Source of the DNA: Piscicola geometra
Lineage: Eukaryota > Annelida > Clitellata > Hirudinida > Piscicolidae
Direction of reading: 5' to 3'
Assembly (NCBI GenBank): GCA_943735955.1
Contig: OX030956.1
Coordinates: forward strand, 9,942,445-10,006,444
DNA: 64,000 nucleotides
In this document: piece after piece, positions 1,621 to 64,000 of the stretch
Numbering within the stretch: position 1 is the first letter of the stretch
How the letters are laid out: each line of letters opens with the position of its first letter
Translations under genes and position numbers: made by a program
Notes under the pieces: generated by a model
The model's input: only the letters and a program-made list of their open reading frames with translations
The model's database searches: none
Told to the model about the DNA's origin: nothing

Positions 1621-4600
1621 CACAAGACAAACATGACAACGCTTCTGCAGGAAATTGCAGGCGGTTTAAAGGTGCAAGCATGCAGTTCAGGCCACAGTAT
1701 TGGTAGCTGCAACTGGATCATCTTCTCTGATTACCACAAGGTTGGGCTTCTCTTATTGCTGCTGGGGGCACTGTGGGTTTAGTGTAGGCTATTTTCCATT
1801 TATTTGTTTAGGATGTTGTTTTTGGTTTTTACGTGACAAAACATTTGTGAGCGTATGACTAATAAAAACAACAACAATAACACAGATCAGCTACATTGGG
1901 GCTTCTTCAGCCCTCTCCACACATACCATGGTTGCTTGAGAAAATAAATAGAACATTTCTCTATTACAGCTAATTATGAATAGAATAAAATATATGATTG
2001 AATTTAGGAATTAATAAAATTTAAAATACTCTTGAATTCTTCAGCCAATGGCCAAGGTCGATTTGAAGGCGTGTGACGTCATGATCATGGCATGCCTCAC
2101 GCAGAATCCCCTCAACAACCCTGACAACTATATGAGGGAGTTCTGTTTGAACACATGTATGTGCTGGTGATGATGGTGAGAAAAATGGTGAAGAGGATAA
2201 GAAAGATGAAAAACACCAAACGTTTCCACCTCGACAGCAATGACACTAAAAAGAAAAGGGCGAGTACTAGTGCCTTGTTCGATGGTCGGAGTGATCTTCG
2301 ACTTGATTGACTGTCTCTTCAGCCACCTAGACTCTTCCCCCCTCCTCTCCACCTCTGTCTACATCATCTCGCCTGTCGCCAAGAATAGCCTTGCTTTCGC
2401 TAATATATATGCTGAATGGTTAGTGTGTGGAGTGTTCATAAGCCTCATCTTCAGCATCATAATCATCGTCGTCATGATCATCATCATCACCTCCAAAGGC
2501 TGTCGAGTCACAAGCAATGCAAAGTATACCAGCCGGAGCCGCCTTTTGTCCACGCTGAAGTCATTACTAATAACAAAAATATCTCCAGCAATAATAAATT
2601 GTTTCCTTATTATTTAATTTGTTGATTCTTACTATTATTAACCTCAGTGATGATTCATTGTTATTAATGCTACAGCTGATCAAGGGAAAGCGGTTGGAGG
2701 TGTTTTCAAGCATGTCAGGTGGATGAAATCATCACCATTATCATTATCAATATCATCATCATTATCAATATCATCATCATTATCATCATCATTATCATCA
2801 TCATTATCATCATCATTGTCATCATCATTGTCATCATCATTATCATCATCATTATCATCATCATTATCATCATCATTATCATCATCATCATCATTATCAT
2901 CATCATTATCATCATCATTATCATCATCATTATCATCATCATTATCATCATCATTATCATTATCATCATCATTATCATCATCATTATCATCATCATTATC
3001 ATCATCATTATCATCATCATTATCATCATCATTATCATCATCATTATCATCATCATTATCATCATCATTATCATCATCATTATCATCATCATTATCATCA
3101 TCATTATCATCATCATTATCATCATCATTATCATCATCATTATCATCATCATTATCATCATCATTATCATCATCATTACCATCATCATTATCATCATCAT
3201 TATCATCATCATTATTATCAACATCATTATCATTATTATCATCATTATCCTCATCATTATCATCATCATCACCATCATCATTATCATCATAGAAGGTTTC
3301 AGCAAGGCAGTTAAACATCCTTGTGTCGTTTTCTGCAGTGATCAACTACTCAGGTTTTATAAAATCGTCCTAAGAAATAAAAATAGGAATAAAAAACAAT
3401 AAATGAATTAATTTAATTATAATAGTTAAACACTAATAATGAAGTAAATAATATAATAACGACCAACAAAGGTATGGAGATGTGGTGGACTTCATGCTGC
3501 AGTGGAAGGACGACTCTGCCAATTCTGTCATTTTCACTGGCACGTTGGGATGTCACTAATAATAATAAGAATAATAATAAATAATTCGAATGTTTAATGA
3601 AAGAATTTATGTTTCTGGATTGTTACCCTCTTCACTCCCACCAAAGAGCCCACGCTGAACTGCTTGGAGGTGCTCGGTCCCTATCTGCCTATGAAGATGA
3701 AGGTGCCATTGGCGGGCCTAGTGTGGTATGGTGTGGTAAATGCAGTGTTCTTGGTGGGGAAGTTAATGATCTTATTATGCTGCGCAAATCATTTTCAAGC
3801 AAATGAACCGATACCATCTGACCGGCCAGGTCTTTCACTGCCCCATTGACACTCGTCTGAGCGCCTTTCAAGCCAGCAAACTTCTCAAGGACCTCCAACC
3901 ACGCCATCTCATTTTGCCCCACCACTACCACAACTCATTCAACCCCGATCTATCCATCGATCCGGTTCGTTTTATTGGATGTAGTTTTTTCCATTAATTA
4001 TATTAATATATACATGAAGACTACAGTGAAAGAACGGACATAGCACGTAATTTTGATTGTGAGATAATTAAAATGTTAGCTTCAAAGACTAATATCACAA
4101 GTATTGCATGCTTCAGTTGCACAGACAAGTGACATTATAGGAAACTTTCTTTTGAAAACGTACTCTCAGTTCTAGAACCATATGGCGTGTTAACATTGTA
4201 ACGCAAATTGACGTCATGGGCATCATAATTGCGTCTAAAACGTTAGTATTTTGTGAAAAGTGAACATTATTAAACACTTTCCAAAATCCTTGTTTTCTGA
4301 GATTTCAAAAATTTGCCATCGCTCTAAGATTAAAAATCGATTAAAAATAAAATTAAAGGGAAATTTATAAAAATAAAAATAATTCTTTTTAAATATTGGT
4401 TAAAAGAGAAAATACCAAGGGTTGTTTAAAAGTATGATTCTTTTTTCCTTACTACAAAATTTTTCAAATGCTAGCAATTTTTAAATATTGTTTCGCTTCT
4501 CGGGTCAGGCTTGCAGAGCAGCCTATTCTTTTCGACTTGGTTTTGGCTTCCTGTAGAGGGGTGTCACATGAGACAAACTTGCGCTATCCTTTGGCTGAAA

Positions 4601-21200: not shown

Positions 21201-24200
21201 ATTTAGGAAAAACCTCAACTCATCTTATTGTGATGTAAAATATTTAAAAAACGGATTTTATTAGCGTGGTTTAACCATGAAAATGCTGGAAAATAGTGTA
21301 AATGAGACTTCAAGGTATCCCTTTCTTAGTAATTAAGTAAAGAAAATGCTGATGAAGGATTAGAACCGGGAATTTGATAATAGCCAATGCCTCATGAGTA
21401 ACTGCTTTTGCAATAAAGGCTTTGTAAAAACAATTCATTTTTTCTCATGTTCATTGATTGAGTTTTCCTAATTAACTGGATATAATAAGCAATGATTAAT
21501 AAAACTTGTTTTTTTCAAAAGTTGAATGTTATTGATTGATGTGATAACCGCTAATGCTTGCTTTTTCCTGGAATTATTTTATCTGTTCGAGAGAAGTGTG
21601 AAAAGTAGATTTATTAGCTCAAAGAAATTATAAAAAAAAGAGCCTATATTAGGGTTCGGAAAGTTGATACGAAATTGACGCGTTATATAGTTAATTATTT
21701 AACGATATTTAAAAAAATTAACACAATTGAATTTTTTCAAGATTTCTTATATAAAAAACTCTTAATAACTAATGAAAATCTCTAGATAATAAAATTGAGT
21801 ATCATTAAATTCAATTGCTCTAAGAAATGATATTGAATATTTTTTAATAAAAACTTATGCTATTCTTCAATCTACCACAACCAAAGAAGAAAATGTTTCA
21901 AATTGTGAGATAACAGCGTATAAAAAAGAACCACGTGGAAGGAACACCAAATTACTTATCCATTGTTAGCAAGGAAATATTAAGCAACTTTTGGTTTCTT
22001 GCGGATAGACGAAAATCATCATTTCACTTGACTTTTTGGGTCATATGCATCAGAGCTCTACCCAGACTGCGTCATTTAGTCGTGCCGCGGAAAAAGTGGT
22101 ATTTTGACTTCTTATCTGCGCTCGCTTGATGATTAGGATGGATGTAAGAGTAAAATCGAGAAAAGTTGTAGTAGTAAAAAAAAGATTTTTTAAATTGTTC
22201 ATTTTAAGCAATTTTTATGAATTTGAGCGAAAATATATTAGAAAACATAGTATAAATTTTCTTACAAACTAAGAAAAAGAAAAATCAAATCAAGCTAATA
22301 GGCGTCATAAAAAAAGAAAGAAATTAGAAGCAGAAGAAGGAAGAAGATGGCAAAGATAAGAGCAGCGACACTTGTCATTTGCATTTTCAAGATGCATACA
22401 ACATTCCTTTGTTTGCTCGAACCTTTTCTCCCATCATCATCAACATCATCATCATCATATCATCATTATCATTATCATCATCATCATCATCATCATCATC
22501 ATTGTCACTACTCCTTAAAAACCAATTTTGCATAATCATCATCAAATGAATCAAATGGATTGATGGTTTGATCGTTGTGATCGTTTTCTTTGGTTTTTTT
22601 CAAACAGAGAAATCGTGTTTAGTCCAGTTTCAATGAAAGATACATAAATAAATAATTTTATCATGACAAAATTATATTACTTTGAAATAATAATAATAAT
22701 TTAAAAAATGTTAATTAAACCATCAAAAAACATGTTACACATGACTTTATGCAAATGAGTTGGGTGATTTTGACATTTATTTAACTCTTTTGCAACTCTT
22801 TTCATTTTTCTGTTTTTTTATTAAAATTATATTTTTATTATTGTGGTTTTCGGTTGACAATGGTTTCCAGGAAGCAATTTCAATAGAGGAATCTGTGTAC
22901 GGGTTGTTACAAAGTGAACTAAATTGATTACTAAAGAGATATGAAAAGGAACATTTGAGAATAATTTAATTCTAAATATAGCTGTTTCCATAGGTGCCGA
23001 CTTGTCAAAAATATTGGGGGACCCAGGCCACCTATACAATACAATACAATACAATACAATACAATACAATACAATACAATACAATACAATACAATACAAT
23101 ACAATACAATACAATACAATACAATACAATACAATACAATACAATACAATACAATACAATACAATACAATACAATACAATACAATACAATACAATACAAT
23201 ACAATACAATACAATACAATACAATACAATACAATACAATACAATACAATACAATACAATACAATACAATACAATACAATACAATACAATACAATACAAT
23301 ACAATTCAATACAATACAATACAATACAATACAATACAATACAATACAATACAATACAATACAATACAATACAATAAAATACAATACAATACAATACAAT
23401 ACAATACAATACAATACAATGATGAATATTATTAACGTGGCGTTAACCCGGGCGAACTTCAAAGACCACCTATGATATAAGAGTCTTAACTCTTTATATT
23501 TTATAAATTAATATTACATCATTTAACAACTTTATAATTATAGATAAATATACTATTTGAATAATTTTTGATGAGGTTAGTTCAGACAATAAGCTATGAA
23601 TTCATTCATTTTAATACTCTCAAACTTAGAAAAATAAATTTTAGTTTGTCAATGTTTCATTTATAATCAATTAAAAGTAAGTTGAAATTTTTGTGAAAAT
23701 GATATTTTAAATGGATTGTGAAAATGATATTTTAAATGGATTGTGAAAATGATATTTTAAATGGATTGTTAAAATGATATTTTAAATGGAATGTTAAAAT
23801 GATATTTTAAATTGATTGTTAAAATGATATTTTAAATGGATTGTTAAAATGATATTTTAAATGGATTGTTAAAATGATATTTTAAATGGATTGTTAAAAT
23901 GATATTTTAAATGGATTGTTAAAATGATATTTTAAATGGATTGTTAAAATGATATTTTAAATGGATTGTTAAAATGATATTTTAAATGGATTGTTAAAAT
24001 GATATTTTAAATGGATTGTTAAAATGATATATTAAATATAGTTTAGGGAGCAAGACCACCGCAGGTCTTTTGACCTCTAATATGAAAATTAGTATGGAAA
24101 TTTCATAAAATATTTGTAAATTATATTAAAATATTTAAAAAAAGTAATTGAAATATGCCAACATCAAAAAATTAAATTTAAATAAAAATATTGGAGTGGG

Positions 24201-27200
24201 GGGGGGAGAGGTCAGGGGGAGGTCAGTTAATGGCGGGCCCGAGCGACTAAATATTGGGGGGCTTGAGTCTCTCCAAGCCCCATGGAGACAGCGCCTAGGC
24301 TGTTCCACAAATAAAATCGAAGTTGATCGAACGATTAAAACTTTTGATTGAAGGTAATCGTATTTTAATGCAATGTGGTATCAGCTAATTTGACATAAAT
24401 ATACACCTTTTTTTCCTTCCTAAAAAATATTGAAGTTTCCTCACAATGTATTTATAAAATTAAGCCATATTTCAAAGATTATACAAATAATGCATAACTG
24501 TTCAAATATGAAAACGTCACAGTTACTCATGCAAACAAGCTTTTCTACATTGGTTGGATCTAGATGACTCTTATTTGTTTACTATGTGCCCTGAAAAGAT
24601 GAATAGACGATCACAAGAAACTATACTTGCAGAAGATGACAAGTACTTTCTTGCCAGTTTCGCAAGAGCAGATATGCTGCTTCAGATTGTTGCCACCAAA
24701 AAAAAGAAAATTTGTAAGCCTACTTGAGATTCTATTCGATTATGTTCAGAATCTGGAGCTTACATATGTTCGCAGTCACTTGTTTGCTGAAGATTGTAAA
24801 GTTTAAGAAGTGTTAAACTCTTTTCCGAGTTTTTTTCAACTTTCCTCTGTGAATTCTTTTTTATTTTTTGATCACATTTAAAATTTTAAAATTGGGAGTC
24901 ATGATGTGGCAATTCTTTAAAATGGATATTCTAATTCATCTTTCTTTACTCCAATTCGGAAATACGATTTTATTTGAAACAAATTAAATAAGCTGGATTA
25001 TCTTTTGAAAGGCATAATTCTTGTTTAAAGTGAAAAATTGCAAATTCCACCATCTTACATATTTTTCACCAACAAGAAGTTCTGTTGCAAATCTCCAAGG
25101 AATGAGACATTTTTTGATGAAATGCAACTTTAAAAAATGGAATATCTTTTAAACAAAATGTATTTTACTATTTTCTGTAACGCAAAATAAGAAAATAAGT
25201 ATAAGAAAATTTAATTCCGATAAATTTTGTTACCCGTGTTAAAAAATGAAAATGCGTTACTAACGCGTTAATCAAAAGTTGAAGCACAGCTCTAATAAAT
25301 AGAGATTAAAATTCCAGTGATTCGATTTGATCAAAATAATCGTCTGGGAACGCATTAAAAATGTTTTATAAACTTACAGTTACCAAATTAACAGGTTTAC
25401 GGAAAATTAGTGTAATTAAAATTAATTAGTCCATTAATAAATTAAAATTCAACTTAAAAGCTGCATCGTTTAGAAGAATTTTAAGTTTGCTAATAACGTT
25501 TAAACGGATAAACGGTTTGGAGCTCAGATTTTGTCTCTTCTAAGTGTGATACCTGTCTACATCTATCACCACTTTGTTTCTGTCACAACACTGCTTCCAC
25601 TTCCACACCACCACAGTTGACAGACGAAGAAAGGGTGTACCTCAACGCGGCCACTCTGGGAGACTTGGCAATCGTCCGGCAGTCAATTGAAGATCTCGAT
25701 TCACCTCTGAACGTCAACTGCGTCGACTATATGGGACGATCAGCCATTCACTTGGCGGTCGACTGTGAAAACATGGAAATGGTGGAATTGCTGCTAGAAA
25801 GGATCAATTATGCATTGGTGGAAGAAGCTTTGTTGCATGCCATCAGTAAAGGTTCCACTAAGCTGGTTAAAGTAAGTAAGCGCTCTTAATGTTCAAGAAA
25901 GAGCGCTATAGAAATCTATTTGATTGGTTGATTAAGTGTTGTGATAGCTGCTAGAGAAATTGAATAAATAGTTGTGAATGTTGTAGAAGTTGATGGTATT
26001 TTATATAATAAATTGAATGCTGTGAATTTCTTTGAGTCAAATAATGCAATACTTTTTTTTGCAATGTTGAATTTTTTTAGGTGATAATAGAGCACCCGAA
26101 CTACATAGCAGCAGCAGACCAATGCAAGCGTACCCTAAAGGACCCCTTCTTCAGAACTGATGAAAAGAGCCAGTTCTCCCCAGACATCACTCCTATCATC
26201 CTTGCTGCCCACCACAACAACCACGAAATCATTCAAATGTTTCTCTATCGCAACCACACAATCGAACGACCACACCCAATCTATTGCCAATGTAACGACT
26301 GTGTCACTAAGCAGAACTATGACTCTCTGAAAAGATCAAGGTGGTTTGTGAATAAACATTTTGATTTAAAAAATGAATTTTGTGTGTGAATAAAGAAGCT
26401 TTTGTGGTGGGTAAGTGAATTGGGTGAGCTGAACAAGTTGAATTAGGGTTAAGGTTAGGGTTAGGGTTAGATTATAAAACATATGATTTATGTTGTGCCT
26501 TAAAGAGTTTGATTTTCAACTATAAGGGAGAAAATACTTCAAATGCTATTTTTTCAAATGAAAAAACAAAACTGTATTTATTGATAAACTTTCATTCTGA
26601 ATATCTATTTTTCGGACATTTCATCAATTTTTTGCTCTGTAACAGAATGAACAGAAGAAATATCGAATAGAAGTAATGAAACTTTCGGGCATTTTAAGGC
26701 AAATTTAAATTCTTAAAAATAATAATAATTGAAACATTTTGATTTTTACGACATCTAAAATATGAACAGTATTCAAACAAAGATATAATGACAAGCACAG
26801 TGTACCAATGGCTTGATTCCGATAATCGGAATTGGACTAAAAATTGCTATTTTATAAATTTAAAAGCCTCATTTAAATATTATTAGACTATGTCAAAATA
26901 CCTGTCAAACATAGTACTCTTAAATAAACTATATGAAACGTCCTAAAGAGATTGTTAATTCGGGACACCTAATACTAGCATGTTTGGAATCAGCCTATTT
27001 TGTGCTAACGACATGGTATGCGTGGAAAGATTGATCATATAACTCTTTGAAAAATAAATTTATTTGTTTTTTTATATGCTTGCAATTCCTATTGCATGAA
27101 CATTCTGATCACTTGAAATGCCCTGAACTATATTTATTTCAAAATTAAAATTGTTTTTCCAGTATTATCTATACATATGAACAATTCGAAACCAAAATTC

Positions 27201-45200: not shown

Positions 45201-48200
45201 ACGCTCTATTACAATATGTTACACGAAATCTTCAACGACCACCGCAGCTACTTCATGAAAGCTTGTGAGTTTTTTAGAGTTATTTTGTATATTTGTGTGT
45301 GTATCTATATTTGTGGGATTGTATTTATTTATTTATTTGGTTAGATTCAAAAAGTAAAAAAATTTAAAAGCAAAAATTTTACCTTTCACTTACTTTCCCC
45401 TTACTTTATTGAAATTTTAACTCAGCACGCTTCGAGTGGAAACCAGATGATCCTGAGATTGTGTCAGACATTTTGTTCGCTATTGCAAACGTTCTCAGCA
45501 TTGCCAGAACCACCTTTCTCATGCCTGCCTTTGAAGTCCTGGGTACTTTGCAGATCTCGCTTGGTCGCATGCTCGGAGATATCACACGCTTTATGGTGCT
45601 CTTCATTCTGGTGAGTGGGATTGAAGCAATTTCAGAAAACTTTAGCTATTTTTCTAGAACATTTCCTTAAAGTGTAAAAAAACATTCCATTGCATAATAA
45701 CCAATATTATCGAAATATATGTACAAATTGTACATATAAAAACAATTCAACATAGTTTGCGAACTATATATAATATATTATTATATTTTTCTTAGGTATT
45801 ATTTGCTTTCATGGTGGGACTGCACAATCTCTACTGGTACTACGGAACGCAAACTTACATGGCGCAGAAGGGGGACATGGACATCCTGATGCACACCTCA
45901 GAAGCCTTTCAAGGGTCAGTTCTGTTGCTTGTTCATTTTATTTATTTAATAGTCAGTTGCACAGTGTTTCGCATATTCTAATTTTTAAATAAAGTATAAA
46001 AAAAGTTTATGATATCGAGAAGAATTACAAATAAAAACTAGTAAGTTCCCGCCGCTTTGCTTGCAAGTTATTTTGAGTGTTTTTACTTTTAATAATTATA
46101 ATTAAATAATTCGTTCGTTCATACTTCGAGTCAACGATGACCACTTCAAGTCATTCGGGAGTGTGTTGTGACTGGCTCTCTGTGTGTGCGCAGATGGCTG
46201 ATGAGGCCGATCCTGGCACGGAAAGTTCGAGAACATTAGGAACAAGGGATGAGTGAGACGTCTCTAGGAGGGTTAACAGCGCGGGCTTTTCTGATTTGTC
46301 TCATCTTTTCTGCGGCGATGATCCTGTTTGCCTTGCAGGTCACGGTACCTTTATGAATGAAAGAACGCCGAGTGGAACGATTCGTTGCAGCTTGTTCCTA
46401 CGTTTCTACGTTGATGGCAAACGCTTTTATTAAGAATTTCAGAGTGACTATTAAAGCGTTTATTTTGCTCACCCTGAGACCGCTAGCTATAGAAAAGTTC
46501 ACCAAAGAAGAGTCTCTTTGGCAGTCTCTCGTCTGGCTTTCGGGCTACGTGCCATAATTAACGAAGCTGAAATTGCAATAGGAGGGTGAGTTTGCTGGGA
46601 AGTCCGGCTATGAACAGTATCACTGTGTCTAGAGTTTTTTTTGCCAATTTGTGCCGAGGATCTTCCTGAGGCTTATTGAGTAAAATTGGTTTAACTTCCT
46701 AGCATGGCGTTGATATACAGTCCACGTTTCACATGCATAAAGCAGTGTGGGGAGCACCACAGCCCTGTATACTTTCAGCTTTGTCTTGGTGGTGATGCCT
46801 CTTCTGTTCCAGACGTTGGGGTACAGCCTGCCAAAGGTGGAACTGGCTCTAGCAATTCTGAAGTTCACTTCGTCATCGATAGTGACACTTTGGGATAGTG
46901 TACTGCCTAGGTAGGTGAACCGGTCCACTGTGTTGAGCCTTTGGCCATTGACCGTGATGTTGGGCTCAACGTAGAGCTTTCCAGGTGCTGGCTGATAAAG
47001 GACTTCAGTCTTCTTTCTGCTGATCGTCAGACCAAAGTTTGTGCAGACGCTGGAGAACAGGTTAACGCTGCAGTGCATGTTGGCTTCTGAGACAGCGTTG
47101 AGGGCCCCCTCATCAGCAAACAGCAAGTCTCTGATGATGTCTGTCGTAACCTTGGTTTTTGCCTGGAACTTCCAAAGGTTAAAAAGTTTGCCATCTGTGC
47201 GGTACCTTAGATTAACACTAACCACCTCATCTCATCATAAGGCTAAACAGAGTTGGTGCCAGAACGTAGCCTTGCTTAACCCCGCTCGTGACTGGAAAAG
47301 AGTCATATGATTCTCCATTGTCCTGGACTCTGGTTGCATGCCTTCGTGGAATTTTTGCACCAAGACGATGAATTTCCTTAGACAACCGTAATTGGCCATG
47401 ATCTTCTACAGACCTCTCTACTGCCGGTGTCAAAAACCTTGGTGAGAAATGTAGAAAACAGGTCAGACTTTTGGTTCTGACACTTTTCTTGCAGCTGCTT
47501 GGCAGTGAACATCATGTCAATGGTTATTCGTTCTTTTCGGAAACCGGACTTTCAGGCAAGAAACCTTGGTCAAGGTGGTATGTGAAACGGTTGAGCAAGA
47601 TTCTAGCAAATATCTTTACTGCACTAGAAAGCAGTGAAATGCTTTTGTGGTTTTCACACGCTTGTCTACTTCCTTTCCGCTTGTAGAGATGTAGAGTGGT
47701 ATCATCTTTGAACTTCTGCACATTAATAAGAACAACTGGTGGAGCCTGTTAGCCAAGGCTAGAGTTACGTAGTTATGTGGTGGAACTTTAGGGTAAGGGT
47801 TATTATTAAAAATTTCTTTTAGTTGTTAAAAATCTGTAATCTCTGCTTTTTAACTACGTAACTTAGTGGTGTTAGATTATTTAATAGGACCCCAAAAACT
47901 ACTTGATGACGTCGCATTTCTAGTTAAACCAATCCTTGCGCTTTTTGATCTAGGGTCCCAAAGTCTCTGAAGTGGCATGGAGTTCTCTGAATGTCTTTTT
48001 CCACATTTTGGTTATTTGGAGAAGTGGAATTCCAAACGTTCTTCCAAAGCGTCCATAAAAGATTGCTTGCAACCAACGGAATTCAGCTTGCGATATAAAG
48101 CCGTTTGGGAACCTTTTTGACCTGCAGCCATCGTTTTGCTTGAATGTGGATGGTGAGCTTGGTGATAATGAGGTGGTGGTCTGTCCAGCATTCAGCGCCG

Positions 48201-54735: not shown

Positions 54736-55732
54736 TTTGTCAGTCATTGTCTTTAGTAGGCTTTATTTTTAGAACTTTAGTGTAATGTTTTTTGCAAACA
54801 TAGAAGACACAGCTTCAAGAAATGTTTTGATTTTTAATATTTAAGTTCTAATTCGCCTATGAACATTTTAAAAGTGTTTATTTCTGGGATGACATTTCAT
54901 TACAACGTCCATTTTACGACTTAGTTGTATTGAAAACTCAAAAAATATTCGAATTTAATAAAACAGTTGGTTGTTTTTGGAAGAATTCATTTAATCAGCA
55001 AATTAAAAATTTTACTTAAAAGATTTCATCATTTTGGTTTACATTGTTTCATGTCAGTACTTTAAAAATATTAATTTAAAGTGATCATCTGAAAGGTGAC
55101 GACTCAACCTCTCTTTACTGTCTCATCGATGTAGTAATTACGTTTTTACATTTTATTCAATTCAATAAGATTTGAAATCATATCGTTTTAATTGATTCTA
55201 GCTATTGGTTAAATAATATGACTAGTTTTACTAGAAATACGAAGCTGATGCTGGTAACTCTCGTACTGTTGGAAATGTTACAAAAACTATTCAACAATTG
55301 CCCAATAATACACGTGCATTTATTTTTTCATCCTTTTCTGCATTAATTATCTTCTTTATTTACCTACCAATAAAACTGATTTTGATACCTTCAATAAACC
55401 TCCATCTTCAATCAAAACTTATTTAAAAACTCCTTAGAACTTATTGTTTTTTCACAAGAAAAATAATCATATTACTTTAATTCGCATTTTTAAGACACAA
55501 TCTTATAAATTTATAATAGGAACGTGTTTGGTCTTAACTCGAACTTTTAAGTATCCAATCACAAGCGTTGATAAGAAAATGAGTTCTTAATTAAATACGA
55601 TAAAGCTGATTAATTTTTTTATTAGAAGCTACTTTTGTAGTTAACAATGCCTTATAAAAGTTTTTTGAGACTAAATATCTTACTCAAGTAACTTAAAATC
55701 TGAATACACTAACTTTTTAGGTAAATAATACT
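54736..55732. other. Spacer between TRPC and gene A
   Basis: Holds the TRPC 3' untranslated region with AATAAA at 54957-54962. Then comes AT-rich sequence up to gene A. An acceptor-like ctaactttttag ends at 55720, 12 bp before the gene A start codon, and could mark a 5' UTR intron or a trans-splice site. Confidence 0.5.
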
Positions 55733-58700
55733 ATGAAAAGTTATCTGTTTATTTTGCTGATGTGTGGAAAAGTTTTTTCATACAGTAAGTTACTTCTAAA
55801 CTTATTCACTCATGCCATCAAAGTTAATTTTGAAAACGTTAACTATCAACGCTTGACCCACCCACTTCTACCTCGATGTTCAGACATTCCAGACGGAGAA
55901 TTGAAAGTGTTTCGTTACATGGAGAATGAAGAAGTGAACTTAAAGGAAACGGAATGTCCTTCGGGTGGCAATTTCAGAGACCTTGTGACCGGAGACATGT
56001 TTCCAAGCGTCTTCAAGGCTTCTGGAACTTCTGCCAAGAAACTCGTCTGCGTCCTAAATGACAAAACTCTCTTTGCTTTTAGAATCGTAGTTTTCAGTCT
56101 GTTTGTTCTTTAATCTATGAACTAACAATTTTCTAAAATATGTTATATTAATCTCATATTAAGTTTCAAAATTGTAAGTAAATAAAAATTTAAAACATGT
56201 TTAAAACAGAACGTTATCTGAAGTTTTCATTCGAGAAGAGACCTCCCCACAGGGAAGGCGATGTCTTCCCTTACTCATGCAGAGCATCTTTTTACCTTAC
56301 AGACCCTTACAACCTCACAAGGGTGATGATGACTGTGAGGCAAGGTAATACAATTTTTGAAGAACGAAGCATTGGCACTTCACCTAGTGTGCTTAGCTCT
56401 CTAGAAATCGATTCAACCATCACTATCACTAATGCAAGCCTTCAGAGTATAAATGGTGTGTTATTTCCAGTTATTTAAAACATATTCAAATAATAATATC
56501 GACTTCGATATTTGTTATTCTTTTATTTTAATCATGTTCTTTAGAAACTTTCCTTCCCTAACCTCCTCACTCTGACCAGTACAGGTATTCCTCAAGACAG
56601 CACTGTAACGTATGAATGCAGTTTGAGAGTGGAAGAGTCTGCTCATAGGTTCATTTTTCCTGTAGCCTTTTTCACTCTACACTTTGTTCAATGTGAGTTA
56701 CCATTTTAATAGAAAACATTTTTAAAACTTTTGAAACAGCTTAAATAACATAAAATATCTCCATCTGGAAGTTCCAGTTCGAAAGGCGGGCATTGAAAAA
56801 ACGAAGGTAGAAATAGGAGAAGAAATAGAGTGTGTTTCTGAAAGTTTTCCATCAGCTCATCATTGCCAGTGCATCTCCACTACAGCACTTATCACCAACT
56901 CAGTAACTGAGATTTTTTCAGCTCTCAAGAGTGAGAATTACACAAATGATGAAGTGGAAATGCGTGAAAGCACGGATAGTCGAAAGGAAAAAAAAGATTA
57001 CTTGAACAGTATACAAAAAAATAAAGAAGAAGAAAAGTATAACTTTTTGGAAGACGATGGCGATGCCATGGAAATCCCCCATTACAAGCATAAGGTAGAG
57101 TTTTTTTTATAAAATGATAAAATATATATATTAAAATTTAATATAAAAAGATTCACTATATTGATATTACTTTTATTTTATTTCATAAATAATGTAATAA
57201 CCATATTATTATTCATTATTCAGATTAATTTTTCTTAATATTAACCTCACTATCATTATCTCTCATTTAATTTTACTATTTTTAAATGTCACATAACCTG
57301 CGTCTGTCAGCAATAATAAAGATTAAAATGAAAAAATAGAATTACGCTTTGACTTTTAGAGCTACAAGCTCATACACTAATGAATTTAGAAAAACATCGT
57401 CATTATTTTAATCCTCTCATCAATCATTTTTTCTCCTTTTTCACCACCAGTTTTTCATTGGAACAGTGGGCTTACACCGTATCAACTGTACTGCTAGAAG
57501 CTGGTTCAACAACAGAGAGGTCAATAACACTTGGTCTGGATACGCGCAAGCCTACGGTGAAGCTGCTAATTTGTTTAGTTTTCAATTAATAATAATATTA
57601 ATAGGTGTCGTTTTTGTATAGCGCCTGGGCACGCAGCTGAAGCACTTTCACTACGTCGTAATGCAAGAAAGAAATAAAAATAATTATAATAGCAATGTCA
57701 TAAAAAGAAAAGCAAAGAAAAGCATGGAGTAATTATTATGAGTGATAAGCTAAGTTAAAATAATGAGTTTTCAGTTTGGCTTTGAAAGTCGAAAATTGGT
57801 TGATGTTGCGAAGTGCAGGTGGAAGGGCATTCCAAGTTGTTGGAGCTGCGTGACGGAAAGCTCTTTTTGAGATGTTGTTTGTAGTGGCTTCTTGGTTGAG
57901 AAGAAGAGATGAAGATGAACGCAGTTGTTTGTTTGATGTTTTGTTAGTAATGAGTTTGCTGAGATATAACGGTATTGAAGTTTGTAGAATTTTGAATGCA
58001 GTGATGGCTATTTTAAAGGAAATTCGAAAATCTATAGGAAGCCAGTGAAGTTTTATAAGATTATCATTTGATGACTGAACAAGGTGATGGCCTGGGTAAT
58101 CACATTTGAGTGTGATTCTAGCCGCCTTGTTTAAAACTGACTGTAGACGATTTCCTTCTTAATTGGTGATATTATATAATAGCGAGTTATAGTAGTCAAG
58201 TCTTCTTAATATTAGACATCGGAAAAGTGAGGCGGAGAGGTCAGTAGTAATGAATGGGCGTATGTGTTTGATTGCTTTGAGATGATAGTGTGATGATTGG
58301 ATGATAGATGTAATATGGTTTTTGAAAAGAAGTTTGCTATCAAGAGTGACTCCAAGTATTTTGAGATTGTTATTAATGGGGAAGTTATTTGAGTTGATGT
58401 CGATAGATGATATGGTGTTTAAACTATTTATTTGAAAAGTGGCGCCTAGTATTATGATTTCTGATTTAGTGTTGTTAAACTGGAGATAGTTATTGAAAAA
58501 CCAAGTTTCCATGGTTTGTATGCAACATTACTAGTAATGTTGGATGTATAAGGTGTGATGAATTAAACAAGTTGTATATATCAGCATATTTATGGTAGGT
58601 TATATCGAACTTTTTGACTATATTTGAGATAGGTGAGATGTATGTGGTGAAAAGAAGCGGTCCAAGAACAGAGCCTTGAGGAACCCTGTGTTGTATATTG

Positions 58701-61290
58701 GTTGGTGATGAGTTGTGTGTGCCTAATTTAACTTGATAATGTATATTTTCTAGATATGATGACAGCCAGTTTAAAGCAGTTCCATCGTCTCCAAATTCGT
58801 TATGAAGTCTGTCGATGAGAATAGAATGGCTGATGCGAGAAGGGTGGTGTTTTTTGAAAATGTAGTCGGTGAGATGCAGTAGTACTATTTCTGTAGAGTG
58901 GTAAGGTCTGTAGGCTGATTGATGACTGGGATAGTTTGGATTGAGGTGATATGAGGTTGTAGTTGTTTTAATACGGCTCTTTTCATAATTTTTGAGATGG
59001 TGGACAATTTGGAAATAGGTCAAAAATTTGCCGGATTGGTTGTGTCAAGGATGGCTTTTTTAATATTGGTGTAATTTGAGCTGCTTTGAAAACAGACGGA
59101 AGCCATGTTTGTATTGCTTGAGTTTGTGGAAGGATAATTTTTTTGCCGGTTTAATTGTTTTTTTAAGATTTTGCCATAGAGTACGTGGATTATTGGAAAA
59201 ATCTATTTCCGTTTTGATCATTTCCATTCTTGATTTGACAAGTGCTTCTCTTGTTAATGCTTTAGCTTTATCATATTGTTGTTTATTAGAGGATGAAGGA
59301 TCTTTGAAATAGGTTTTCTCAGCTTTCCTTCTATGTCTTTTGGCTTTTATTGCATCCAGTGACATTTTGTGGCGATTTTGATATGATCACCGTATGACTT
59401 TTGTGGCACATGCTTATCAAATAGTTTGAAGATGACATTGTTTATATGTTCGACGTAGCTTATCGAGCCTAATTGGGCTTGGCACTCGACTTTTCACAGG
59501 CTTGCTACTTTTGGGCTTTCCACTGTTGCGTGCCTTGGTGCATTATGAGAAGGCCAATTTTTTATATAGGATAAACAGCGTGATCATGACACTGCAATTA
59601 TAATCATTACACTAAAATATCTTGAAAACGTGACGTGATTGAGTATTTCATATTTCATTTTCAGCACAAAAATTTTTTTCTAACTGATTCACAAAAATGT
59701 TATCGACCAGTGTTATCATTATAGGAGGCTCGTTCCAGGATCATGAACATATTTTTTTCCAATTTCTCTTTTTGAAACCATCCTAGGGGCAGCATGTGAG
59801 CTCATGTTGTACGGCCTAATCATATCAAGTTGGGAAGCTTCTGTGACGCTTCTAGTTTTTGATTAAATTGGAATAAAGTGTGCCTTTAGTCTTGGACCCT
59901 TTTGGAAGACGATAAACATGACCAAGCAGCTTCAAAAATGAGAATTCTTTTAGTTCTTTTGAGACGGTTTCATTTTTACTCTTTTTGACTAATGATTACT
60001 GCATATTCATCGAGGACAATGAGAACCAAAAGCATCAAACTTTCTAGCGTTTCTTTTTGAGACGGTCCAAGTTTTGACCCATACATCAGAATTGTAAAAA
60101 TGTATCCCCTGTATAGCCTGACTTTTGTTATCTATTAAATAGGGCTACGCGAAGAACAGTTCTTGAGCAGACTAAAAGCACTCCGTTTCAATGTCAGACG
60201 AGCTACTACAGAAACCATCTATTATTGCCCTAAGGTTTACGAACTGCTTTAAATTTTCAATCTGGGGACCACGAGGCTGTAGATGAGATTGCTTTGTTGG
60301 GAAGTTACTAGATCTTTGTCTTTTTATAGTTGAATTAAAGAACCAAAGATGCAGCTTCTTCAGCGAAAATGTAGAAAAGCAAGGTCGGTAAAACTGTTAT
60401 CTTCAAAGCTGGTGCCCAACATTACAAGACCCGTTGACCATTTCTAAACTTGATCCAGCCCTACATTGAATGCGCCAGGTTCCAATATAAAACCTTGACG
60501 AATATGGAACCGTTTGCTAAAGAATCTATCGTATTTTACGTTGCTTTCGGTTTTTAGGTGAAGGGCCTGGAAGATCCGGATTAGCTCTACAATAATGGTC
60601 AGATTAGCTCTACAATAATGGTCAGATTAGCTCTATAATAATTTTCGTCATTATTCTTGTTTACGCAAAATAACGGCTCTCTTCTACGCATTTTTTTCCT
60701 CATACAACATGCCATTTATAAAAACTTTATAACATATTTTCTAAAGACTAATATTTTAACACTAACCGAAAATATTAAAATATAACACGTTTTTTTGGTT
60801 GTGGAAATAGTAAACAATTCTTAGATTGTAAAATTTAAATATTTTTTCAGTTTTAAAACGAGACGAATTCTGAAATTACACTAATCAAGCTGTCCTAGAT
60901 TTAGATTAATGAAATTATATTATATTTGATCTTTCTTTATATTTTATTGTTTTATTCAATTTTTGAGTTTGTATCCTTCAAATTAATTTTTAATTACACT
61001 TTTTACAGAAAAGGCCAAACCGTCTATTGTTGACTATGGTGTGTTACAGCTTTGGTTTTAATAAACTCATTTCCGCAAAAAGAAACATATAACAAAGTTT
61101 TTTATATTCATCATGTATGCTGTATATTATATTAAACAGCCAACCTTACAAACGTCTAAACACAACAGATGGGTTTCAAGCAAAATGTGAGTGTCGATCT
61201 GGAGCCACAACTAATGGATGTCAAGGGATGCTGATAATAGTTGTGGCTTTTTTTGCACTACTAGAGAAAAACTTTCACACGAAAGTTTGA
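55733..61290 (+). CDS. Gene A: secreted or surface protein with Ig-like modules (unrecognised)
   Basis: I do not recognise this protein. Eight exons join in one frame: 55733-55784, 55824-56096, 56210-56457, 56545-56692, 56772-57094, 57451-57556, 61009-61038 and 61169-61290 (TGA), giving about 433 residues. A signal peptide (MKSYLFILLMCGKVFS) is followed by three two-cysteine, Ig-like units: unit 1 (exon 2; TECPSGG to LVCVLND), unit 2 (exons 3-4; YSCRASF to YECSLRV) and unit 3 (exons 5-6; IECVSES to INCTARS). Unit 3 carries a long lysine/glutamate-rich insert. The last exon has a KCECRSG motif and a short hydrophobic run (MLIIVVAFFALL), possibly a membrane anchor. N-glycosylation motifs are frequent. 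It is collinear with gene B next door. AATAAA is at 61448. Confidence 0.7.
57600..59400 (-). mobile_element. CR1/Jockey-type LINE, 5' truncated and frame-broken
   Basis: The minus strand reads, from 59365: RHRRKAEKTYFKDPSSSNKQ (pre-RT linker); then, in 58490-59023, HQSAYRPYHSTEIVLLHLTD and VPQGSVLGPLLFTTYISPIS, typical RT motifs. It goes on to KYADIYNLF (the YADD box decayed to YADI) and at 58159-58512 the region after the active site (LKILGVTLDSKLLFKNHI). The 3' end near 57600 has a short taatatta-type tail preceded by a gcgcctgggcacgcagctga block. The element is inactive. Confidence 0.87.
59465..59560 (-). repeat. Scrap similar to the piggyBac remnant at 48466-48535
   Basis: The shared words are gcttggcactcgact/gcttggcattcaact, ttttcacagg/tttccacagg and gctacttttgggc, in the same order. 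Confidence 0.5.
59572..59725 (+). repeat. Dispersed repeat RV, copy 3
   Basis: Collinear with 52480-52645: aacagcgtgatca, cattacactaaaatat, gaaaacgtgacgtgat, catttcattttcagcacaaaa, gattcacaaaaat, gaccagtgttat. Confidence 0.6.
59740..60560 (-). pseudogene. Very old LINE reverse-transcriptase remnant
   Basis: In several minus-strand frames there are weak echoes of LINE RT: SFEDNSFTDLAFLHFR, similar to the region around the ADD box, and a later ILMYGSKLG-like block resembling LLYG-E-W. Stops interrupt every frame. The call is tentative. Confidence 0.4.
60576..60645. repeat. Tandem array, 23-bp unit, three copies
   Basis: The unit ggtcagattagctctacaat plus aat is repeated three times, with one c-to-t difference in the last copy. 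Confidence 0.9.
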
Positions 61291-61599
61291 ACCACCATAA
61301 TAGAAAATCAGTTTAATGGATGAGTTTTTGTGGTGATCATGTGGTAGTATTAATGAACTTCTGTAAAAGTTATAAAAAACTGATCAAAACCAAAGAAGAG
61401 CATATATTGAGCAACTTTTTTGAAATCTTTAAACATTGTTGTTAATCAATAAAAAATATTTTTTCTTTATACTTATTTAAACCTATATAAAAGCTGTTTT
61501 TATGAATGACGTTTAGTTATTAAACAAAACAAAATCAAATGAAGATTTAGCAGTTTGAAAAGTCTTAAGTGAAGTGATTTTGGTGAAAATAAACAAGAA
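61291..61599. other. Short spacer between genes A and B
   Basis: Only 309 bp separate the gene A stop from the gene B start, including AATAAA at 61448-61453. No TATA-type or other promoter motif stands out beyond general AT richness. Confidence 0.6.
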
Positions 61600-64000
61600 A
61601 TGAAATACAAAAATTTGTTCAATGTCTATCGATTTTTTCTTCATTTTTTTTATTTTTATATTTTGAACTTTTCAGGTAAATGATGAAATGTACGCATATT
61701 AAGTATTTTAAACCATGGTTTCATAATTTTCGAAGCGATGTTTAATCTATTTAATGATACTTCAATACCCACCTCAAACAAACTAGGATCTTTACAACCC
61801 TATTGTATCTCCCTCAAGTGGTTAAACACCCCTCCAGCTCATGCTGCAGCAGCCACTGTAACGGAAGGCAATGCTTCTAATCTCATGTTCAAGGTGGTTA
61901 AGCCTCTAGAGCAGGTGAGACTGAGCCACCGAAACTGCCGCAACGACAGTGAGTGGACTGTTTCAGCCACAGCTGAAGTTGTCGAGCCTTTCTTCGCAGC
62001 CACCCCTCTCAACGCCCACCGCTATGTCTGTTTCAACGAGGAAAAGAGTGGCACTCTAAGAGTGGTTTACATGGGTTAGAGCTATGCTGTTAGCTAGTGC
62101 GATTAAAAACGTAATATTTCAGCCTTTTTCCATTATTAATAAATTATTTTGTCTTTTTAAAAAATTATTCTTTTTCTTTTACATCAACCTAACAGACCAA
62201 ACCATGAAGTTGCACACATACAACATCACCAGCATCTTTCATAACAAATTCTTTCACATACACTGCTCCGTGGGCTTCTGGATGCTCTACCACTATGGAG
62301 CCATTTTTCTCAGGCTTTTCCAGGGTTCTCATCTTTTGTTCAGAACCGACAAGAAAGTGGAAATTGGAAAGGTTTCTTAAAGTATATAGGAATAGAATTT
62401 TTTTTTTATGTCTATATTGAAACTATGTTTTCAAAAATATTGGTTTCAAAGATTATAAAAGCTATTTTTACAGAATTTACCTACACATCTGAATCCCTAT
62501 GCAGTCAACCCACTTGCTGATAGACATCCACGTCGAAGCCAACTTCCACCACGGCAGCCAATTCACTTGTGTCTGGAGCATACAAGACTTCTCAGAGTAC
62601 CTGCCGGTGGAACACGTCATAAAACTTTCCACCACCGTCCAAATTCTCAGTCACTTTAAGTTTTTAATACGATAAAAGTATAGAAATTATTTGAAAAACG
62701 TTATAAATGTCGTTTAAAAGTCTCAAAAGAATCAAAAATAATTTTTCAAGTATTTTAAACAAATTTTTTACAATTTTCAAAGCGATGTTTAAACTATTTA
62801 TGCAAATTCAGTGCCTGTGACCAACGTTCGAGTTTCAAAAACACAAGGAAGGGTGGCGGAAGTGGTACAATGTCTGTATGATGGACTGCCCAAACCTCAC
62901 AGCGTGGTTTGGGAAATGATTAAAAGCCCAGGCGGAGGAGAATTTGAAAGTTTTTACAGAAATGGAAATTTCTTTGGTGTTTTGGATGAGATGAAAGTGG
63001 AAAGTAAAAATGCGCCAGTAGCTATAAATGTTGAAAAGTTTAAAGAATCAGACGAAGCGGTTGTTCATGGAAGTGTTGTAATTAGAAGAAAGGAGAAAAT
63101 GGATAAAGAAGATACAATAGATGAATCATCTGACGTTGAACAAGGAAGCCTACTACTGCTGTCTGAAAGTGGAGAGTTTCAGCTTAAATGCACTGTTAAC
63201 AACACATATGACTACTTCGAAGGCGCTGTAGCCGAGTGGAGTGGCATGATAATGGTGGAAAAATTGGGTCTGTGGCATACTAAATAGAATTTCGTTTTTA
63301 TCATTTGAATCTACTGAATTAATTTTCTTTCATTTGTTTAATTTTCTCTCATTTGTTTAATTTTCTCTCATTTGTTTAATTTTCTCTCATTTGTTTAATT
63401 TTTTCAAACATACTCACAAACAACATTTCAATAGATGTATATGAAGTCGCAACAGTTCCTAGCAAAATAACGACAGTCAAAGTAGGAGAGATGTTAACAC
63501 TAGATTCTTCCCAATGTCCTAACGAAACGCTGTGGACAGATGGGTTCAAGAAGGTGAAAAAGGAATTGAAGGTAGTGGCTGGTAGTTACTTCGCCAAGAG
63601 GTACGTCGCATTTTACCACTCTGGTCCCTGCGACAGTATAAGCGTTGTCGTGCTAGGTTAGAATATATATTTTTAAAACTATGTTTTGAAAACAGTAAAA
63701 TAATAAATCTCATTGAAATAAAGAGTAAATATAAATTTTTCAAGATGTTTTTTAATTGGAAATAATGTGATGTGAATGTTTGAAAGTGACATGAACAGCT
63801 TAAAACAATCTATAAAAATTTCCAAGAAAAAGAACTGCATTTGAGACAACCAAGTAAAACATTGTACAAGATAGAAGAAGAGTTGATAATGTCTTGTTCA
63901 GTCTCTGGTTGGTTCAACAACAAGATGATCCTTCAAAATTATCTTTCCTTCTTCGTCAACGGCACCAAGCTGCCTGATATCGCCTACTCCAGTTTCAATG
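61600..64000 (+). CDS. Gene B: tandem paralogue of gene A, multi-Ig-like, runs off the window
   Basis: Unrecognised, but clearly a relative of gene A. Exons in frame are 61600-61675 (signal peptide MKYKNLFNVYRFFLHFFYF), 61787-62074, 62196-62371, 62505-62649, 62812-63267, 63435-63656 and 63827 onward. Exon 2 matches gene A exon 2 (NCRNDSEW to YVCFNEEKSGTLRVV). Exons 3 and 4 match gene A exons 3 and 4 (IHCSVGFWMLY; FTCVWSIQDF). Exon 5 (VQCLYDG to LKCTVNN) equals gene A exons 5 plus 6 and also has a charged insert (RRKEKMDKED). Exon 6 repeats the exon 2 type (QCPNETLW) and exon 7 the exon 3 type (MSCSVSGWFNN), so the protein is a tandem repeat of a three-domain unit. It is probably secreted or on the cell surface. 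Confidence 0.7.
63319..63402. repeat. Tandem array, 19-bp unit, about four copies
   Basis: The unit tttaattttctctcatttg is repeated in the gene B intron just upstream of the acceptor at 63434, contributing a pyrimidine-rich stretch. Confidence 0.9.

Follow-up and report, generated by a model that had tools for sequence, protein, structure and literature searches.

Chromosome 2 of the fish leech Piscicola geometra carries, in and beyond the 64-kb stretch analyzed here (the window; positions 9,942,445-10,006,444, contig 2 in the assembly), a cluster of genes, designated A, B, and C, that share a repeated unit of three domains, D1, D2, and D3. Four such units lie within ~24 kb (one in gene A, two in gene B, one in gene C), and the order D1-D2-D3 is fixed in all of them; positions above 64000 are window-extended coordinates, taken from the DNA downstream of the window. 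Our preferred interpretation, to which we assign a probability of roughly 0.64, is that the cluster encodes a small local family of fish leech extracellular proteins with one or two units of highly diverged immunoglobulin (Ig)-like domains. It is best read as a small, fast-diverging Ig-like subfamily, whose function we infer. COX1 of this assembly shares 97% identity with that of Codonobdella sp., a piscicolid leech, and the mitochondrial genes, read by eye, follow an annelid-type order; Pfam PF16915 had no match, a result that says nothing about the taxon.

The original prediction, made from the window alone, had described genes A and B as a tandem pair in which a three-domain unit (exon 2; exons 3+4; exon 5), flanked mostly by phase-1 introns, was duplicated within and between genes. 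All motif and exon positions that it gave for the two genes were located, and the additional domains anticipated to the right of position 64000 are present, namely the end of the second unit of gene B and gene C. The duplication itself is borne out by shuffle tests and by the extra copies in genes B and C. The proposed similarity between corresponding exons exceeds chance for D1 and D3 and, in the case of D2, for units 2-3 only.

These tests compared 12 domain sequences in 66 pairs with 1000 shuffles each, gene A D2 being included as its phase-0 variant only. At most 5 of 1000 shuffles reached the real score in 7 of the 18 same-type pairs, as against none of the 48 cross-type pairs; at a limit of 50 per 1000, the counts were 10/18 and 4/48. 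When gene C was omitted, units 1-3 gave 5 of 9 same-type versus 0 of 27 cross-type pairs at the stricter limit, and an earlier run, made with ten sequences and with gene A D2 in both its splice variants, was in agreement. Among D1 pairs, the score was reached by no shuffle for units 1-2 and 2-3, by one for 1-C, and by 136-437 of 1000 for the other three; among D3 pairs, by none for 3-C, 1-3, and 1-2, and by 10 (2-3), 18 (1-C), and 30 (2-C). By sequence, D1 and D3 are therefore well supported as repeated types. For D2, a single pair of six stands out (units 2-3, no shuffle; the other five, 106-822), and the D2 domains of genes A and C are assigned by where they lie and by phase-0 introns resembling the one in unit 2.

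The exon structure shows the same regularity. A phase-1 intron precedes D3 in units 1-3, where the encoded domain opens with x-P-V or x-P-I, and also in gene C, where it opens with x-P-L. The phase series 1-1-0-1 predicted for both A and B is seen directly in gene B; in gene A, the phase-0 step is obtained only through a weak donor (56388/56545), the alternative junction (56455/56585) being phase 1. Gene A has a signal exon followed by one exon for D1 and two each for D2 and D3, and its predicted signal peptide is strong, being one of 4 forward candidates in 64 kb that pass the highest threshold. Gene B contains two whole units in the order possible signal exon, D1, D2 (two exons), D3, D1, D2 (one exon), and D3; the window ends within the second D2, leaving the rest of that domain and the final D3 to the right of it. 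Four of 19 enumerated gene B tails, all from predicted exons, end in one hydrophobic stretch that stops at 65226 and would constitute a membrane or glycosylphosphatidylinositol (GPI) anchor. We further noted a K/E-rich insert of ~40-50 residues in the D3 of units 1 and 2 (56772-57094; 62812-63267), which is absent from unit 3 and gene C.

Gene C is encoded by the minus strand (65.5-79.8 kb). Its D2 holds two phase-0 introns, with phases taken from the D1-D3 reading frame and a doubtful first exon ignored; the candidate for that exon, 80138-80203, remains doubtful, as it splices out of proper phase. The gene was found by similarity search among 2666 open reading frames (ORFs), in which the D3 ORF scored E 0.009 and the D1 ORF E 1.7, and D2 was picked by eye. 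Because its exons were chosen by similarity, the D1 match taken alone carries little weight, unlike the match of gene C D3 to unit 3 D3 (score 67, z 8.4). The stop codon directly after D3 indicates that the protein may be secreted. Poly-A words of gene B (65335, plus) and gene C (65363, minus) face each other, which is no evidence at a local AATAAA frequency of 2.4-2.8 per kb. The large intron presumed for gene C includes a tandem array (66220-72500) with a higher-order period of 2,799 bases between recurring ORFs.

The assignment of the domains to the Ig fold is plausible but weak. A structure model of D1 has a mean predicted local distance difference test (pLDDT) score of 71 (78-85 per block over residues 31-90; 65 over residues 21-30); judged by their titles, the best 50 rows in a Foldseek search all contained Ig-type domains, as did 49 of the best 50 rows in VIA-align, the exception being CD45. 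The spliced gene C, a predicted model, matched Pfam Ig_3 in two stretches (E 1.4e-4), scoring 22.8 bits and thus below the cut-off of 30. We also scored the domains against an Ig profile made from 94 Ig rows of the same leech genome, some of them overlapping, and compared each real score with 1000 shuffles. Gene C D3, reached by 1 shuffle, is the one of twelve domains that clearly matches the leech's own profile, followed by gene C D2 (11), unit 1 D2 (25), unit 2 D3 (36), unit 2 D1 (44), and gene C D1 (46). Elsewhere in this genome, I-set domains whose scores are the same or nearly so are arrayed at spacings of ~1.05 and 1.09 kb on contigs 16 (C16:995519-1007256) and 4 (C4:4973864-4987124); these arrays are probably internal repeats of giant genes.

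Several observations weigh against our interpretation. By sequence, the Ig-like character is marginal, and a model of fair confidence was obtained for D1 only. The Ig-like fold of the original prediction is doubtful for D2, the model of which has low confidence (pLDDT 57) and has jelly-rolls as its nearest structures. Pfam Ig models gave no match to spliced A, spliced B, or the single domains; the silence of the two spliced genes lowered our confidence in the Ig-like reading and raised that of a rather unlikely alternative, in which the repeat is real and some domains, chiefly D2, are another beta-sandwich than Ig. Against such a fold, the best Ig_3 stretch of gene C lies within D2 (residues 87-138; D2 alone, E 0.022), and in the PDB, gene C D2 and D3 weakly resemble two Ig receptors, KIT and TrkC, by sequence (E 0.6 and 0.9). 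In addition, gene A D2 fits the unit by position only: in its best comparison with another D2, the score was reached by 246 of 1000 shuffles, and in that of its other splice variant by 21 of 300. Finally, the end of gene A as first read derives from a long interspersed nuclear element (LINE), and a structure of two separate genes A and B is likelier but not proven.

The LINE bears on both the number and the integrity of the genes. It contains a reverse transcriptase match (RVT_1, E 7.9e-10 at 58490-59044), and at least 39 other copies, 91-94% identical, start at query positions 57-78, equivalent to 57579-57600 in the window (39 of 41 listed matches, the remaining two being the locus itself and one short piece; 40 of 600 candidates were scored). 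The open frame of the last gene A exon enters the LINE at ~57579-57600, so its end, up to the stop, is transposon sequence. A second reverse-transcriptase-like fragment lies at 46629-47231 on the minus strand (RVT_1, E 0.0024, below its cut-off). Because the A frame runs into the LINE and the phase-1 donor at 57556 falls where D3 exons of gene B end, with the next D1 exon entered in phase 1, A and B could form a single gene with one signal peptide and three units (nine domains), the LINE residing in a 4.2 kb intron and the exon at 61600 being unreal. This arrangement is less likely, with real points in its favor: the putative gene B signal exon is T-rich and only just clears the lowest threshold, one that 15 forward exons in 64 kb pass, those of A and B included, and none of 45 gene A tails enumerated within 59500-61448 (at most one extra exon allowed) was strongly hydrophobic. 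A hydrophobic frame at 61141-61290 was rejected as the end of gene A, since it requires phase-2 entry and no enumerated donor supplies one. Separate promoters are suggested by TATAAAAG, which precedes the ATG of both A and B (by 80 and 114 nt); this word, picked after being seen, occurs 60-150 nt upstream of 29 of 2211 forward ATGs in 121 kb. An AATAAA at 61448 carries no weight at a background of 2.8 per kb. We consider two genes clearly the likelier arrangement; of the predicted tandem pair, the separateness of A and B is thereby favored. That the cluster consists of decaying pseudogenes is improbable: weak donors, the LINE at the end of A, and the very low similarity among copies would fit decay, yet exons of 273-456 bases stay open despite AT-rich DNA, and GC content differs sharply between exons and introns (A 0.41/0.24; B 0.43/0.25; C 0.40/0.29).

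Searches for further relatives were largely negative. Among 5.8 billion proteins, a set that includes leech COX1, the gene A protein drew 1396 candidates, none at E 1, and for gene B units 2+3 the best 7995 candidates by shared words were scored, none at E 10; both searches were word-based and thus weak at 20-30% identity. Same-genome searches covering all twelve domains returned the query exons and three weak places only (E 0.6, 0.96, and 0.23), the last of which holds no family domain. As these searches also missed neighboring paralogs, confinement of the family to the cluster is not established. No additional unit emerged when 121 kb, made up of the window and the DNA to its right, was searched with profiles, unlisted candidates at E 0.11 or above aside; the same profiles also missed gene C D2. 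Among the papers listed by literature searches, titles and the openings of abstracts describe no such family in leeches, which does not establish its absence from print.

In organization, the closest parallels are Alr of Hydractinia, fuhc-tm of Botryllus, and, on the molluscan side, the molluscan defence molecule (MDM) and the snail FREPs, none of which has been shown to be a relative. Alr, likened to the three leech genes by organization alone, is described as a cnidarian allorecognition complex, some candidates of which have signaling motifs (PMC12065747). The same source portrays fuhc-tm as having a signal sequence and three tandem Ig domains, much as in the leech, and differing as a polymorphic type I transmembrane protein of a tunicate; its description there includes no repeat of a three-domain unit (PMC12065747). 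MDM and snail FREPs are lophotrochozoan immune proteins with Ig-like domains, the FREPs differing in that they combine Ig superfamily and fibrinogen domains (PMC11999971). Scans of the leech exons, the spliced models, and three predicted tail ORFs gave no fibrinogen domain match. The mammalian CEA/PSG genes are also clustered, fast-changing Ig genes that reuse domain exons; unlike those of the leech cluster, their Ig domains are recognizable.

Under our preferred interpretation, the phase-1 introns at unit and domain boundaries would permit in-frame duplication of domains and whole units. Gene B may be the product of two joined units, with duplication and an inversion accounting for the three genes. 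The signal peptides would direct the proteins through the secretory pathway to the outside of the cell, where they might serve in recognition or adhesion, either secreted or anchored in the membrane; such are the usual roles of multi-domain Ig-like proteins of this kind. Low identity between neighbors and the absence of a detected relative suggest rapid change, which is why we considered immune, allorecognition, gamete, and host-interface roles; the data choose none of these. Speculatively, the strong divergence could reflect selection by a partner that itself keeps changing; microbes, other leeches, and the fish host are conceivable examples. A bolder, quite tentative version holds that the cluster is a rapidly evolving system peculiar to leeches, serving recognition of self and non-self, of gametes, or at the host interface. 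In it, three Ig-like types would be shuffled as in-frame cassettes, would escape standard annotation through divergence beyond the reach of Pfam, and would resemble Hydractinia Alr in kind despite a separate origin. If our interpretation is correct, an annelid possesses clustered, unit-repeating, and nearly unrecognizable Ig-like genes; such loci have so far been studied for allorecognition or immunity in few animals, an annelid not among them. The coordinates, exon phases, and domain seeds can now be used to search other leech genomes.

Table 1. Coordinates of the gene cluster and of the adjoining LINE.
Feature	Position	Strand	Remark
TATAAAAG, candidate TATA box of gene A	55653..55660	+	80 nt 5' of its ATG
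Gene A exon 1, predicted signal peptide	55733..55784	+	phase 1 out
Unit 1 D1 exon	55824..56096	+	similarity tests; structure model
Unit 1 D2, first half	56210..56388, alternative end 56455	+	D2 type by position only
Unit 1 D2, second half	56545..56692, alternative start 56585	+	D2 type by position only
Unit 1 D3, first half	56772..57094	+	with K/E-rich insert
Unit 1 D3, second half (gene A exon 6)	57451..57556	+	phase-1 donor at 57556; frame open to stop at 57621
LINE (reverse transcriptase)	57585..59050, limits approximate	-	3' end fused to gene A exon 6 open frame
TATAAAAG, candidate TATA box of gene B	61486..61493	+	114 nt 5' of its ATG
Gene B exon 1, possible signal peptide	61600..61675	+	phase 1 out; T-rich; weak by itself
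Unit 2 D1 exon	61787..62074	+	
Unit 2 D2, first half	62196..62371	+	phase 0 out
Unit 2 D2, second half	62505..62649	+	
Unit 2 D3, one exon	62812..63267	+	with K/E-rich insert
Unit 3 D1 exon	63435..63656	+	
Unit 3 D2, single exon	63827..64147	+	window part to 64000
Unit 3 D3	64411-64692	+	beyond window
Gene C D3	65471-65742	-	ends in stop
Gene C D2, three exons	between 76044 and 76663	-	
Gene C D1	79603-79830	-	

Rfam and tRNA scans gave no match. Elsewhere in the window, an ORF on the plus strand (25512-25889) contains ankyrin repeats (Ank_2, E 1.1e-11) and presumably resembles the N-terminus of a TRPC channel. Long simple repeats, in which several frames are open, occupy positions 2654-3402 and 22827-23507.
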